A stretch of 64,000 nt of DNA, taken from NCBI RefSeq assembly GCF_936925435.1, contig NZ_CAKZHQ010000049.1, positions 62,001-126,000 of the forward strand, given 5' to 3'. This stretch comes from an uncultured Ramlibacter sp. Lineage in GTDB: Bacteria > Pseudomonadota > Gammaproteobacteria > Burkholderiales > Burkholderiaceae_C. Under the pieces are notes generated by a model. It had not been told where the DNA came from. It was given only the letters and a program-made list of their open reading frames with translations, and did not search any database. The position numbers were made by a program, and so were the translations under genes. Below, piece by piece: positions 59,438 through 64,000 of the stretch. How positions within the stretch are numbered: position 1 is the first letter of the stretch; each line of letters begins with the position of its first letter.

Positions 59438-60337
59438 TCAGGTGGACCGGCGGTTGACCAGCACGATGCCAACCGCAACGCCGGTCAGTGCCAGCACCAG
59501 CTGCGGCGTCAGCGGCTCGGACAGCAGCGCCACGCCGAACACCAGGGCGAACACCGGCGTGAGAAAGGTGAAGGACGCCATGCGCGTGGCCGGGTAGTGC
59601 CGCAGCAGCCACATCCAGGCCAGGTAGCTGGCGAAGGCCCCGATGGCGGTCTGCAGGAACAGCGAGCCCCAGGCCTGGGCCGAGTACTGCAGCGACCAGG
59701 TCTCGCCCAGCGCCAGTGACAGCAGGGGCGCGACCGCGGCCGTCACCGCCACCTGGTAGAACAAGGTTTTTTCGGGGCTGGCCTTTGCCATGCTGGCGCT
59801 GCCGCGCAGCACCAGCGTGGTCAGCCCCCACAGCGTGCCGGCGGCCAGCGCCAGTGCGTCGCCGCGCAGCTGGCGCGGCGTGCTGCCATGCAGGAAGCCC
59901 TCGCTGAACGCCAGGGCGACGGCGGCAAACGCGATGAACAGGCCCAGCCACTGCAGGCCGCGCAGCTTCTCGCTGGGCACCCAGCGTGGCAGCAGCAGGG
60001 CCACGACAAAGGGCGAGGAATACAGAAAGACGGTGAGCCGCGAGGCCGTGGTGTCGCGCAGCCCCAGGTAGATGCAGCTGAACTCGCCGGCGAACAGCGC
60101 CCCGGCCAGCAGGCCCGCACCCAGGGTGCCGTCGCGCTCGAACAGCTTGACGCCACGCACCGCGCACCACAGCCACAGCAAGGCGGTGGCGCCGGCAAAA
60201 CGCAGCGAGGCTTGCCACAGCGGCGGTACCTCGCCCACCGTGGTCTTGATCAGGATCTGCTGGAAGCCCCAGAACACACAGCAGGCCAGGAGCAGGGAAA
60301 TCGCGAGCGTGTCGAGGTGTTGTTTGCGCTGGACCAT
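59438..60337 (-). CDS. EamA/DMT family transporter
   Basis: This 299-aa inner-membrane protein of the drug/metabolite transporter superfamily has about ten hydrophobic segments in two EamA repeats: VFWGFQQILIKTTVGEVPPL in the first, GTLWGLTTLVLRGSASMAK at the start of the second, and YPATRMASFTFLTPVFALVF near the end. Substrate unknown. The ATG at 60337 is preferred to the TTG at 60346. Downstream of the MarR gene on the same strand, 25 bp away, so it may be controlled with it. Confidence 0.87.
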   Translation of the reverse strand: MVQRKQHLDTLAISLLLACCVFWGFQQILIKTTVGEVPPLWQASLRFAGATALLWLWCAVRGVKLFERDGTLGAGLLAGALFAGEFSCIYLGLRDTTASRLTVFLYSSPFVVALLLPRWVPSEKLRGLQWLGLFIAFAAVALAFSEGFLHGSTPRQLRGDALALAAGTLWGLTTLVLRGSASMAKASPEKTLFYQVAVTAAVAPLLSLALGETWSLQYSAQAWGSLFLQTAIGAFASYLAWMWLLRHYPATRMASFTFLTPVFALVFGVALLSEPLTPQLVLALTGVAVGIVLVNRRST

Positions 60338-60362
60338 GGGCCGCAATGGTAGCGGCCGCGCT

Positions 60363-60800
60363 TCAAGGATGTTGCGCGAGCTTTTCGAGCAGTTTGCGAA
60401 GCGCTACTTTTTCAGTAGCACCCAAAGTCCGCAGCATGCGGGCTTCATGCTGTTTTGCTTCTGCCACCAGGGGCTTGACCAGGCGCCGGCCGGCGGCCGT
60501 GGCCAGCACCATGGTGCGGCGCTGGTCGCTGGCGTCGGCCTGCAATGCCACCCAGCCCTGGTCGGCCATGCGCTGCACCAGCTTGGTCACCGTGGGCTGC
60601 TTGGACAGCACTTCATGGGCCAGCTGGCTCACCGTCAGCGGCTCGCCATCGTGCAGCGTGGCCAGCACCCGCCATTCGATCGAACTCAGGCCGGCGGCCC
60701 GCACATGGGCGTCGAAGTCCTTGTACAGCGCGTGGTTGGCCTGTCCCAGCAGGTAGCCCAGGTAGCTGTCGATAAACCGCTCACCGGCCACCTGGCTCAT
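60363..60800 (-). CDS. MarR family regulator, NicR-like context
   Basis: This 145-aa MarR protein has the winged HTH PLTVSQLAHEVLSKQPTVTK, then VQRMADQGWVALQADASDQR. It overlaps the flavin reductase gene by 4 bp and diverges from nicX. In Pseudomonas putida the MarR-type NicR represses the nic genes for nicotinate breakdown; this gene is in an equivalent place, so NicR-like repression by a pyridine intermediate is likely. A 14-bp palindrome between the divergent starts is a candidate operator. Direct ligand unproven. Confidence 0.85.
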   Translation of the reverse strand: MSQVAGERFIDSYLGYLLGQANHALYKDFDAHVRAAGLSSIEWRVLATLHDGEPLTVSQLAHEVLSKQPTVTKLVQRMADQGWVALQADASDQRRTMVLATAAGRRLVKPLVAEAKQHEARMLRTLGATEKVALRKLLEKLAQHP

Positions 60801-61330
60801 AGCGGGTGTTCAGTGTAAAAACGGCCGCCGTGGAACAGCAGCGGTGAGACGCCCTCACGCCGGCTGCAGCGCTCGACCTCGCCGACGAAGATCAGGTGGT
60901 CTCCTTCTTCGTAGCGGCTGCGGTTGAAGCACTCGAAGCTGGCTGCCGCGCCGGCGAGCACCGGCGCGCCACTGATGCCGGCGGTGAACTCCACGCCGCT
61001 CCAGCGGTCCGCGCCCTTGAGGGCAAAGCGCTCCGCCAGCGCCTTTTGGTCGGCGGCCAGCACGTTGATGGCGTAGTGCGAGCCGGCGCGGAAAGCCGGC
61101 AGCGACGCGGCCGCCTGGGCCAGGCTCCACAGCACCAGGGGCGGCGCCAGCGAGACCGAGGCAAAGGAGTTGGCCGTCAGGCCGATCGGCTGGCCCTCGG
61201 GCGTCAGCGCGGTGACGATGGTGACGCCGGTGGCAAACATGCCCAGGGCGGCGCGGAACTCCGGTGTGGAGAAGCTGGGGGGCTGGGCTTGGCGTGGCGG
61301 TGTCACGGAACTATTTGCATGAAATTTCAT
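60797..61330 (-). CDS. Flavin reductase (HpaC-like)
   Basis: This 177-aa flavin reductase-like domain protein has the family sequence FRAALGMFATGVTIVTAL, LTANSFASVSLAPPLVLWSL and GDHLIFVGEVERC. It probably supplies reduced FMN or FAD to a two-component monooxygenase. The start at 61330 (MKFHANSSVT) fits; the candidate operator overlaps it. It diverges from nicX. Its partner oxygenase may be the ACAD-fold protein at the end of the nicX operon. Confidence 0.87.
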   Translation of the reverse strand: MKFHANSSVTPPRQAQPPSFSTPEFRAALGMFATGVTIVTALTPEGQPIGLTANSFASVSLAPPLVLWSLAQAAASLPAFRAGSHYAINVLAADQKALAERFALKGADRWSGVEFTAGISGAPVLAGAAASFECFNRSRYEEGDHLIFVGEVERCSRREGVSPLLFHGGRFYTEHPL

Positions 61331-61331
61331 G
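61318..61331. promoter_or_regulatory. 14-bp palindrome between flavin reductase and nicX
   Basis: CATGAAATTTCATG is a perfect palindrome that covers the flavin reductase start codon and lies 25 bp before the nicX ATG. It is the only strong dyad in the very short divergent region and a good candidate MarR operator controlling both directions. Confidence 0.6.
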
Positions 61332-61355
61332 TAGTATGCCGCGAAGCACAAGACC

Positions 61356-62399
61356 ATGCTGCAAGAACAGATCGAACCCGCCTGGCTGGACGCCTTCGAG
61401 GCCGTGTTGCGCCGCTGCGCCCTGCAGCCGGGTGACACCGTGGCGGTGCTCAGCGAAAGCCAGAGCCGGCCGGTGCTGGCGCAGCTGGCACGGCTGGCCG
61501 CGGCGCGGCTGGGCTGCCGGGCTTTCAGCCTGGTGCTGCCCAGTGTCTTTGAGAAAAAACTGCCTGTGGCGCGCTCCACAGGCGCCTCGAATGCTATCCA
61601 AAATATAGCGCCCGTGATCGCGGCCCTGGCCGGCAGCACCCTGGTGGTGGACTGCACGGTGGAGGGCCTGATGCACGCACCCGAGCTCCCTGCCATCTTG
61701 CAGGGTGGCGCGCGCGTGCTCTATGTGAGCAACGAGCATCCCGAGGCCCTGGCCCGGCTGGTGCCCGATGCCACGCTGGAGCCGCTGGTCAAGCAGCACG
61801 TCAAGCGCCTGCGCGCGGCCGGCGCGATGCGCGTGCAGTCACGCGCCGGCACCGACTTGCAGATCGCGCTGGCCGGCGCCACCTGCGGCGGCAACTGGGG
61901 TTACACGGCGCGGCCCGGCACCATGAGCCACTGGCCGGGCGGCCTGGCCCTGGCCTTCCCGGCAGCAGGCAGCGTCAACGGCACGCTGGTGCTGGACGAG
62001 GGTGACGTCAACCTCACTTTCAAGCGCTACATCGAGCGGCCCATCACGCTGCGCATCGAGGACGACCACATCACAAGCATCGAAGGCAGGGGCGTCGATG
62101 CCGAACTGATGCGCAGCCACATCGCCGGCTGGGGTGACAAGGAAGCCTATGCCGTCAGCCACGTCGGCTACGGTCTGAACGCCGCGGCGCGCTGGGACAG
62201 CATGGCCTTGTACGACAAGCGTGACTTCAACGGCACGGAGCTGCGCGCCTTCGCCGGCAATTTTCTCTACAGCACCGGCGCCAACGAGGTGGCCGGCCGC
62301 CACACCCTGGGCCATTTCGACCTGCCCCTGCGCAATTGCACGGTGCTGCTCGATGGCCAGGCGGTGGTCGACAGCGGCCAGTTGGTGGCCGCGGCATGA
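61356..62399 (+). CDS. nicX: 2,5-dihydroxypyridine 5,6-dioxygenase
   Basis: NicX opens the ring of 2,5-dihydroxypyridine to N-formylmaleamate using Fe(II) and oxygen. This 347-aa protein, of the M29-peptidase-like fold, carries CGGNWGYTARPGTMSHWPGG and AFPAAGSVNGTLVLDEGDV. The predicted Fe ligands are His269 (AVSHVGYG), His320 and Asp322 (TLGHFDLPL), matching the order and spacing I recall for NicX (His265, His318, Asp320). Its stop overlaps the nicD start (ATGA). An in-frame stretch about residues 72-84 is coded by DNA resembling the dispersed repeat. Confidence 0.85.
   Translation: MLQEQIEPAWLDAFEAVLRRCALQPGDTVAVLSESQSRPVLAQLARLAAARLGCRAFSLVLPSVFEKKLPVARSTGASNAIQNIAPVIAALAGSTLVVDCTVEGLMHAPELPAILQGGARVLYVSNEHPEALARLVPDATLEPLVKQHVKRLRAAGAMRVQSRAGTDLQIALAGATCGGNWGYTARPGTMSHWPGGLALAFPAAGSVNGTLVLDEGDVNLTFKRYIERPITLRIEDDHITSIEGRGVDAELMRSHIAGWGDKEAYAVSHVGYGLNAAARWDSMALYDKRDFNGTELRAFAGNFLYSTGANEVAGRHTLGHFDLPLRNCTVLLDGQAVVDSGQLVAAA
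61591..61612 (+). repeat. Short fragment resembling the dispersed repeat, copy D
   Basis: ATGCTATCCAAAATATAGC lies in nicX and has the GCTAT...ATAGC frame seen in part of the other copies. This is a weak match over few bases. Confidence 0.25.
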
Positions 62400-63178
62400 C
62401 GCTGCCGGCCTTCACCACGCTGGGCGCCGGGCCTACGGTGCTGATGCTGCACGGCATCGGCGGCGGCCACCTGGCGTTCGCGCCGCAGGTCGAGACCCTG
62501 GCTTCCAGCGGCTACCGCGCCGTGGCCTGGGACATGCCCGGCTACGGCCGCAGCGCGCCCATCGAGCCCTACACCTTCAAGGGCCTGGCCCAGCGCTGCA
62601 TCGCGCTGATCGACAGCCTGCAGTGCGGCAGCGTCACCCTGGTGGGTCATAGCATGGGCGGCATGGTGGCGCAGGAGGTGGTGGCGCGCCGGCCCGAGCT
62701 GGTGGCCAAGCTGGTGCTGTGCGGCACTTCGCCGTCCTTCGGCAAGCCCGATGGGGATTGGCAACGCGACTTCATCGCCCAGCGCACGGCGCCGCTGGAC
62801 GCGGGCAAGACCATGGGCGAGCTGGCCGAGTTGCTGGTGCCCCAGATGGTGGGCCCCGGCTCGCTGCCCGAAGGCCTGCGCCTGGCCACGCATTGCATGG
62901 CCCAGGTCAATCCCTCCACCTACCGTCGCGCGCTGGAGGCCCTGGTCACTTTCGACCGGCGCGACAGTCTGGCCCGCATCCACGTGCCGACCCTGTTGCT
63001 GGCCGGTGAGTACGACCGCAACGCACCGCCGGCGGTGATGCGCAAGATGGCGGACGCCATTGCCGGCAGCACCTACCTGGAAATGAAGGGCATAGGCCAC
63101 CTGCAGAACCTGGAAGCGCCCGATGACTTCGACGGCCTGCTGCTGAACTTCCTGGCGTTGCCGCGCCAGCTGCACTGA
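62396..63178 (+). CDS. nicD: N-formylmaleamate deformylase
   Basis: NicD hydrolyses N-formylmaleamate, the NicX product, to maleamate and formate. The 260-aa alpha/beta hydrolase has HGIGGGHLAFAPQ, the nucleophile Ser86 in VGHSMGGMVA, the acid Asp207 in AGEYDRNAP and His235 in GIGHLQNLEAP. The assignment rests on its position directly after nicX, since similar hydrolases (for example enol-lactonases) share these motifs. It overlaps nicX at the start (ATGA) and the next gene by one base. Confidence 0.75.
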   Translation: MTLPAFTTLGAGPTVLMLHGIGGGHLAFAPQVETLASSGYRAVAWDMPGYGRSAPIEPYTFKGLAQRCIALIDSLQCGSVTLVGHSMGGMVAQEVVARRPELVAKLVLCGTSPSFGKPDGDWQRDFIAQRTAPLDAGKTMGELAELLVPQMVGPGSLPEGLRLATHCMAQVNPSTYRRALEALVTFDRRDSLARIHVPTLLLAGEYDRNAPPAVMRKMADAIAGSTYLEMKGIGHLQNLEAPDDFDGLLLNFLALPRQLH

Positions 63179-64000
63179 TGGATGCCCTGAGCTTCACCCC
63201 CGCCGTCGGCGAGCTGCCGTTCACCGCGCGCCAGCGCGAACTGCTGGCGCTGGCCCACCAGCTGGGACGGGAGAAGTTCGCGCCGCGTGCAGCGCAGTGG
63301 GACGAATCGGCGAGCTTTCCTTTTGCCAATTACCAGGACCTGCGTGAAGCCGGTCTGCTGGCCCTGTGCGTGCCGCAAGAGCATGGCGGCGGTGGTGCGG
63401 ATTACGCCAGCTACATGATGGTGGCGGCCGAGATCGGTCGCTTTTGCGGCGCCACGGCCCTGACCTGGAACATGCACATCTGCTCCACCATGTGGACCGG
63501 CGTGCTGGCCGACGGCGTGCCCATGACGGACGCGCAACGCGCCGAGCACCTGCGCTGCCGCGCGCTGCACTTCGACCGCGTGGTGCGGGACGGCGCCATC
63601 TATGCCCAGCCGTTTTCCGAAGGCAGCGCCGCAGCAGCCGGCCGCGCGCCCTTTGGCACGATCGCGAAAAAAGTCGAAGGCGGCTGGCTGGTCAACGGCC
63701 GCAAGATTTTTGCCTCGCTGTCCGGCGCGGCCAACTACTACGGCATTTTGTGCACCGAGGACAAGGGCGACGACAAGCCCGATGCGCGCGACACCCTGTA
63801 CCTGGCCGTGCCGGCCACCAGCGAGGGCTTCTCCATCAGCGGTGAGTGGAATCCGCTGGGCATGCGCGGCACCGTCAGCCGCAACCTCACGTTCAAGGAC
63901 GTCTTCGTTGCCGACGGCGAGCAGCTGATGCCGCGCGGCGTGTACTACAAGGGCGCGCAGACCTGGCCCGCCATGTTCTTTACTCTGGCGCCCACCTACC
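63178..64000 (+). CDS. Acyl-CoA dehydrogenase-fold flavoprotein (3' truncated)
   Basis: This gene runs off the window after 274 codons. The N-terminal ACAD segment FTARQRELLALAHQLGREKF and CVPQEHGGGGADYASYMMVA are followed by PFSEGSAAAAGRAPFGTIAKK and WLVNGRKIFASLSGAANYYG and SRNLTFKDVFVADGEQL. Members may be acyl-CoA dehydrogenases or flavin-dependent monooxygenases of the DszC/HpaH type; the catalytic Glu region that would separate them is outside the window. The TGATG overlap couples it to nicD. A flavin reductase gene diverges upstream of nicX. Confidence 0.8.
   Translation, partial: MDALSFTPAVGELPFTARQRELLALAHQLGREKFAPRAAQWDESASFPFANYQDLREAGLLALCVPQEHGGGGADYASYMMVAAEIGRFCGATALTWNMHICSTMWTGVLADGVPMTDAQRAEHLRCRALHFDRVVRDGAIYAQPFSEGSAAAAGRAPFGTIAKKVEGGWLVNGRKIFASLSGAANYYGILCTEDKGDDKPDARDTLYLAVPATSEGFSISGEWNPLGMRGTVSRNLTFKDVFVADGEQLMPRGVYYKGAQTWPAMFFTLAPTY

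Follow-up and report, generated by a model that had tools for sequence, protein, structure and literature searches.

What does a bacterium degrade with a NicX-like ring-cleavage dioxygenase that is encoded together with an acyl-CoA dehydrogenase (ACAD)-fold flavoprotein and a flavin reductase? The question is raised by one end of a 64,000-nucleotide stretch of an uncultured Ramlibacter sp. (contig NZ_CAKZHQ010000049.1, positions 62,001 to 126,000; hereafter, the window), in which five genes are certain: a MarR-family regulator and a flavin reductase on the reverse strand and, divergent from them, genes for the NicX-like dioxygenase, an α/β hydrolase and the ACAD-fold protein, the latter three overlapping end to start (Table 1). 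This layout agrees with an earlier annotation of the same DNA (the original prediction), whose gene calls, apart from nicD, were confirmed by Pfam and phmmer. The operon's enzyme mix, however, differs from that of the nicotinic acid (nic) pathway it first resembled. Tentatively, and with slightly less than even confidence, we favor a MarR-controlled upper pathway, by which this conserved gene set of a soil bacterium would convert an N-heteroaromatic compound (indole being the leading candidate) to anthranilate and feed it into a coenzyme A (CoA) route. If true, NicX-type ring cleavage is not restricted to 2,5-dihydroxypyridine (2,5-DHP), and an N-heterocycle catabolic pathway lies hidden behind the labels "acyl-CoA dehydrogenase" or "AidB-like", carried by named relatives of the ACAD gene, and "peptidase M29", given to the NicX-like gene in Ensifer and Aminobacter.

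The evidence begins with the dioxygenase. In NicX of strain KT2440, iron is held by His265, Ser302, His318 and Asp320; N1 and O1 of DHP are bound by Glu177, and an E177A variant retains 2.7% activity (PMC7910607). Upon removal of rows with X or internal stops, rows shorter than 330 amino acids (aa) and short duplicate loci, our alignment held 85 ACAD-linked NicX-like proteins and 10 others, namely four from full annotated nic neighborhoods (L129, L146, L147, L149), one from a partial one (L130), the KT2440 structure, and four that are merely "not ACAD-linked" (L142, L148, L150, L151). All four Fe ligands are present in 85/85 ACAD-linked rows, as are His189 and His105. In contrast, Glu177 is found in 0/85 (Asn in 54, Val in 24, Gly in 3, Thr in 3 and Ile in 1), the ten other rows having Glu (7) or Gln (3) at this position. 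In a tree of 37 rows, the ACAD-linked proteins form one side of a branch (support 99/98) apart from the NicX proteins of nic clusters (mean identity 37%); the long rows L142, L148 and L150, on the other side, are placed unsurely. Given the intact iron site, the loss of Glu177 and the separate clade, the protein has probably retained NicX chemistry while acting on a substrate other than 2,5-DHP, as judged from sequence. The original nicX call thus stands as to homology, with the reservation that the gene belongs to a clade of its own without Glu177.

Two of the proteins outside the ACAD-linked set have distinctive surroundings. Genome G451 has, at L142:2551-6979, an additional, distantly related NicX-like gene whose product carries Gln in place of Glu177; it adjoins a gentisate-1,2-dioxygenase-like cupin (226.5 bits, below the cut-off of 442.1) and a fused monooxygenase/reductase. 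At L150:643-7023, on a Rhizobium daejeonense plasmid, a NicX-like gene is accompanied by an oxygenase annotated as of the 4-hydroxyphenylacetate-3-hydroxylase type, along with two amidases and a flavin reductase; there, NicX-type cleavage is combined with another kind of flavin oxygenase.

Table 1 Features of the locus (window coordinates).
Feature	Position	Strand	Evidence or remark
MarR-family regulator, 145 aa	60363..60800	-	MarR_2 (Pfam, E 2e-13); HpaR (NCBIfam, 61 bits, under the cut-off of 121.2)
Flavin reductase, 169 aa from GTG start	60797..61306 (about)	-	Flavin_Reduct E 2.4e-38
CATGAAATTTCATG, perfect 14-base palindrome, probable MarR operator	61318..61331	.	between divergent genes
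NicX-like non-haem Fe(II) ring-cleavage dioxygenase, 347 aa	61356..62399	+	phmmer E 1.8e-60 to KT2440 NicX (7cn3)
Alpha/beta hydrolase, 260 aa, candidate N-formyl/N-acylanthranilate amide hydrolase	62396..63178	+	Abhydrolase_1 E 7.9e-29; ATG start overlaps stop of NicX-like gene
ACAD-fold flavoprotein, candidate oxygenase component	63178..64000, cut by window end	+	Acyl-CoA_dh_N and _M

The original prediction had placed 2,5-DHP at the center of the pathway: ACAD-fold protein and reductase would make it from a substituted pyridine, and dioxygenase and hydrolase would pass it on to maleamate. Besides the NicX homology itself, this route can invoke gene order, in that an α/β hydrolase gene adjoins the NicX-like gene as in four annotated nic clusters, three of which also have a MarR gene. 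The hydrolase, however, which had been called nicD, matched the α/β hydrolases of two annotated nic clusters with only 25 and 28 bits over 30 and 82 residues (BLASTP). It was rejected as NicD, the likeness not going beyond the fold; its best curated models are of the PcaD type, and the listed ones all score below cut-off. As for the nicF, nicE or ring-hydroxylase genes expected further on, none was recognized in the next 15.6 kb (open reading frames read by eye, two genes put to Pfam), where the ACAD gene is followed by an M14-peptidase-like gene, a gene without a Pfam match and then genes on both strands. Whole-genome searches found no NicE or NicF match on the operon's contig and no NicE anywhere in the genome at E 1e-10. 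NicE matches did occur in 7/17 cluster genomes, none above 34% identity, compared to the 77% shared by two NicE proteins of nic clusters. A NicF-like match elsewhere in the Ramlibacter genome reaches 42% identity (its neighbors, by eye, are not nic genes); as identity between two NicF-position genes of nic clusters is itself no more than 36%, this value cannot decide on NicF. The pyridine route was consequently rejected on these marker genes with NicF excepted, nicC having been searched by eye beside the cluster and not genome-wide. With Glu177 lost, the NicX-like clade separate, the hydrolase no NicD, NicE missing and the neighboring genes suggesting anthranilate or salicylate instead of maleamate, we consider 2,5-DHP an improbable intermediate. 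What the operon has in common with a nic cluster is a NicX-superfamily dioxygenase with identical four Fe ligands, a MarR regulator and an α/β hydrolase; what sets it apart is the distinct NicX clade, the dissimilar hydrolase, the absence of a recognizable NicC, NicE or NicF alongside, and the ACAD-fold protein with its reductase plus, in many genera, an acyl-CoA ligase.

The ACAD-fold gene extends beyond the window to a full length of 415 aa (L011:3179-4426). Acyl-CoA dehydrogenases carry their catalytic Glu either near the C-terminus (SCAD/MCAD type) or in helix G (IVD type). At both positions, assigned by motif and by eye from the profile alignment, a carboxylate is missing from the ACAD-fold proteins: residue 391 is Leu in 33/33 and residue 266 is Met or Val in 33/33. 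One paralog in the same genome has RDVRVCQIYEGT where the ACAD-fold protein has RDSRCGSLMLPW; in a Glu control set of 11 sequences, a clear RD-YEGT motif was seen only in L004, and the others, in wrong frames or without the motif, went unused. A canonical acyl-CoA dehydrogenase was rejected on the ground of the missing Glu, the very residue whose presence, together with fatty-acid or amino-acid genes as neighbors, would have spoken against an oxygenase according to the original prediction. Since this residue is absent and a flavin reductase travels along, the ACAD-fold protein and the reductase are plausible as a candidate two-component oxygenase, which makes the earlier proposal a sound guess. 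An ACAD fold with a partner flavin reductase is the combination that marks group D flavin monooxygenases.

Alternatively, the ACAD-fold protein might be a CoA-thioester enzyme of the desulfinase or decarboxylase kind, with the reductase serving something else. Its best NCBIfam match is indeed 3-sulfinopropanoyl-CoA desulfinase (73.9 bits, far below the cut-off of 600), some operons include an acyl-CoA ligase, and single-sequence alignments to several dehydrogenase or desulfinase chains (5af7, 7p98, 4o5m, 4kto) reach the C-terminus, that to 7p98 extending to residue 412. In profile alignments, by contrast, the listed dehydrogenases end at residues 383-387, just before the catalytic stretch, whereas nitrososynthases, which are flavin oxygenases, reach 405. 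In addition, both the divergent flavin reductase and the NicX-like dioxygenase are conserved with the ACAD gene, leaving this alternative with little probability.

Among known two-component systems, 4-hydroxyphenylacetate (HPA) 3-hydroxylase provides the best curated model for the flavin reductase (its C1 reductase; 166 bits, below the cut-off of 340), whereas the ACAD-fold protein, scanned over the 274 aa inside the window, scores just 34.9 bits against the HPA oxygenase model (cut-off 650). The C1 reductase carries a MarR-like domain; the operon has a separate MarR gene adjacent to the reductase gene, and the C1 model also matches the MarR protein weakly (24.8 bits). The HsaA model returned 11 matches in the Ramlibacter genome, none above cut-off. 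An alternative ATG start at 61330 would lengthen the reductase to 177 aa; the GTG was preferred by comparison with L013 (by eye).

The gene set recurs across genomes. A scan of a genome collection matched 436 stretches with the ACAD gene, 432 of them encoding a relative at E 1e-3, and the cluster was checked in the best 80. A NicX-like gene lies near the ACAD gene on the same strand in 71/80 loci (seven of the other nine are on short contigs and two lack it), the hydrolase on the same strand in 73, the reductase in 70 (69 on the opposite strand, one on the same) and the MarR gene on the opposite strand in 68 (ten others on short contigs, two without). In 17 distant loci, the NicX-like gene is near the ACAD gene in all, the hydrolase in 14 (three of these 33-34% identical) and MarR in 8. 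The pairing of NicX-like and ACAD genes is thus more than chance. Carriers include Comamonadaceae, Cupriavidus, Pandoraea and alphaproteobacteria. At E 1e-60, the ACAD gene was found in 6/274 genomes sampled class-wide and 12/300 order-wide (own genome included). Among the titles and abstracts listed by searches of the open-access PMC literature, none described a NicX/ACAD/reductase operon, subscription papers lying mostly outside this search. Two loci with an ACAD gene of 77% identity, L080 and L082 (a Comamonadaceae metagenome-assembled genome (MAG) and Variovorax sp. PCZ-1), did not show the other four genes in the flanks fetched.

Hints as to the product come from the cluster's neighbors. 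An acyl-CoA ligase gene stands next after the ACAD gene, or one gene on, in 17/80 loci (15 Cupriavidus, a betaproteobacterial MAG and Pandoraea) and in 12/18 distant loci, the latter set including L103, whose contig begins inside the ACAD gene and which is not part of the 17 above. The kynA, kynU and kynB genes adjoin the cluster in 16/80 loci (15 Cupriavidus, one Pandoraea); all three of L068, and kynA and kynU of L092, score above curated cut-offs. A fused monooxygenase-reductase of the salicylyl-CoA/2-aminobenzoyl-CoA type is encoded in the cluster neighborhood at L091, L119, L123 and L125 and ~10 kb from the cluster in genomes G446 and G451. The fused enzymes of L119 and of the Ramlibacter genome exceed the cut-off of NF006101, a model named for salicylyl-CoA; the Ramlibacter protein (G000:C20) scores 1399.8 bits (cut-off 1078) and is accompanied by an enoyl-CoA hydratase family gene and two acyl-CoA dehydrogenase genes. 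A gene near the fused enzyme (L119, L125, L092 and the Ramlibacter genome) is called acyl-CoA dehydrogenase only, as no NCBIfam model for a glutaryl-CoA dehydrogenase passes. In the order-wide sample of 300 genomes, the fused enzyme occurs in 12/12 cluster genomes versus 30/288 others (Fisher 1.2e-11, uncorrected for phylogeny) and, outside Ramlibacter's own family, in 9/9 versus 24/282. It is full-length in 14/17 cluster genomes searched; for 14 genomes or records behind other loci, it was present in all 12 genomes and not in two plasmid records, whose chromosomes were outside the search. Next to the Aminobacter copy of the cluster (L127) lies a gene resembling gentisate/5-aminosalicylate dioxygenases (below cut-off). 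What kynABU, the fused enzyme and this gentisate-type gene have in common is anthranilate or, with lower likelihood, salicylate. Caution is advised by Cupriavidus metallidurans CH34, which did not grow on anthranilate although kyn and abm genes are listed for it (PMC8879955).

The same neighbors allow a benzene-ring route, in which the ligase would make anthraniloyl-CoA or salicyl-CoA, the ACAD-fold oxygenase would hydroxylate it in para position, the NicX-like enzyme would cleave the resulting p-aminophenol- or hydroquinone-type ring, and the hydrolase would finish the ring-open product. The acyl-CoA ligase after the ACAD gene, the likewise para arrangement of the two oxygens of 2,5-DHP and the dioxygenase-like neighbor in Aminobacter fit such a route, as does a basic residue (Arg or Lys) close to the active-site loop in those betaproteobacterial NicX-like sequences that were read by eye, where it might bind an anion. 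In the majority of these genomes, however, the fused monooxygenase/reductase is already there for that job (14/17 full-length; 12/12 genomes). The route would therefore be redundant, and we regard it as unlikely.

For the favored conversion of an N-heteroaromatic compound to anthranilate, the following sequence is conceivable. First, the ACAD-fold protein, with reduced flavin from the reductase, would hydroxylate the ring position adjacent to the N-CH carbon, turning, for example, indole into 3-hydroxyindole. The NicX-like Fe(II) dioxygenase, whose family assignment is firm and whose substrate is inferred, would then cut between C(OH) and CH(N), the bond that NicX breaks in 2,5-DHP; 3-hydroxyindole, cleaved between C-OH and the N-bearing carbon, would yield N-formylanthranilate. 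From this, the α/β hydrolase would take off the formyl or another acyl group to leave anthranilate. To judge from the neighboring genes, an acyl-CoA ligase, with a homolog at G000:C25 in the Ramlibacter genome (51% identical to the cluster ligase), could make anthraniloyl-CoA, which, by homology, the 2-aminobenzoyl-CoA-type monooxygenase/reductase (G000:C20) and β-oxidation-like enzymes could carry into central metabolism.

The closest precedent is quinaldine degradation in Arthrobacter Rue61a, where an upper pathway with a cofactor-independent cleavage enzyme and an α/β-hydrolase-type N-acetylanthranilate amidase leads to anthranilate, followed by anthranilate-CoA ligase and 2-aminobenzoyl-CoA monooxygenase/reductase (PMC3534580). 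The two share their logic, though with other enzymes: an N-heteroaromatic substrate, a ring-cleaving dioxygenase, an amidase acting on N-acylanthranilate, anthranilate, a CoA ligase and the monooxygenase/reductase. The Rue61a cleavage enzyme presumably lacks the NicX-type Fe site.

Indole is the weakest link in this scheme, as 4-quinolone or another heterocycle fits equally well. A proposal for an indole route via N-formylanthranilate dates back to 1953 (recounted in PMC6221969). The present operon might be the missing genetic basis of indole → indoxyl → N-formylanthranilate → anthranilate, with an ACAD-fold oxygenase forming 3-hydroxyindole and a new NicX-superfamily clade cutting it before it dimerizes to indigo; we hold this specific proposal to be doubtful. 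If correct, the NicX fold would be a general platform for N-heterocycle ring cleavage. ACAD-like proteins can oxidize indole: XiaF, which works with a separate flavin reductase, hydroxylates indole (at C3 by docking; PMC5481743), and XiaF, IacA and the indigo gene of Ralstonia eutropha HF39 represent ACAD-like, indole-oxidizing enzymes, with indigo arising from indole (PMC5481743, PMC6221969, PMC4577076). C. necator carries the present cluster (L074, L077, L081). The HF39 indigo gene, bec (416 aa), might correspond to the ACAD gene of that cluster. The iif/ind indole clusters likewise combine a two-component flavin oxygenase with anthranilate as end product; their oxygenase belongs to the FAD-binding-domain type (group E, like styrene monooxygenases), and they also encode the short-chain dehydrogenase IifB and the cofactor-independent IifA (PMC6221969, PMC9871250, PMC4577076, PMC13101512). 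On account of this different oxygenase, an assignment of the operon to this cluster type was rejected, as was one to the Variovorax iad pathway, the first step of which is of the Rieske type.

Several observations weigh against the route to anthranilate, for which substrate, order of steps and oxygenase activity are all deduced from sequence. The iif/ind oxygenase is of another type than the ACAD fold, and the portions of those reports available name no NicX-like enzyme. XiaF has His371 near flavin C4 (PMC5481743), a residue without clear counterpart here: no His occurs in the 20 residues after RD, its presumed place, which was not aligned to XiaF. A flavin reductase was found in just 6/17 distant loci, with annotation adding L126 and L127. 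The kyn neighborhood stems from two genera only, and 3/17 cluster genomes lack the full-length fused enzyme (G051 has none, G091 and G213 the reductase half only). The ligase exceeds no model cut-off; because its best models name other substrates (fatty-acid and o-succinylbenzoate ligases; the best solved relative is feruloyl-CoA synthetase), anthranilate is unproven as its substrate, and a ligase in the operon is equally compatible with the ACAD-fold protein acting on an acyl-CoA. Salicylate is likewise a possible intermediate, since NF006101 is named for salicylyl-CoA. Finally, the Ensifer and Aminobacter copies occur with a glutamine-synthetase-family gene and a permease, and that of Aminobacter also with a nitrilase-superfamily gene (models below cut-off), none of which indole explains.

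Control of the operon may be narrow. The palindrome CATGAAATTTCATG is the one place in the 4.49 Mb genome where CATGAAWWTTCATG is matched perfectly; three other sites have one mismatch, and the pattern had 0 matches in 100 shuffles of the window. With up to one mismatch, it occurs no more than 250 bases upstream of the NicX-like gene in 66/86 loci, compared to 70 matches in all 1.56 Mb of loci scanned; most distant loci and Pandoraea are among the 20 that lack it, and some show a weaker form (L119, L062). These counts suggest that MarR is a repressor with a small number of targets, above all in Comamonadaceae. The palindrome is probably the MarR operator, and MarR a probable repressor of the divergent pair that would occupy this site until released by substrate or product.

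Some variants of the locus are worth recording. The hydrolase of Aminobacter (L127:15257-16546) carries a fused N-terminal SRPBCC (Polyketide_cyc2) domain. In L013 (6740-7984), L014, L017, L027, L033, L037 and L038, ~1.3 kb of extra DNA separates the hydrolase and ACAD genes, which in L013 is a beta-lactamase-family gene. On a Dolichospermum plasmid (L128:9998-11245; cyanobacterial MAG, typed conjugative), an ACAD gene of 57% identity lies among transposases, XisH/XisI and toxin-antitoxin genes, with no annotated NicX or hydrolase nearby. Beyond the MarR gene and on the same strand, an EamA-type transporter gene (59438-60346, reverse strand; present in 47/81 loci by gene clustering) encodes a possible exporter or importer for the pathway.

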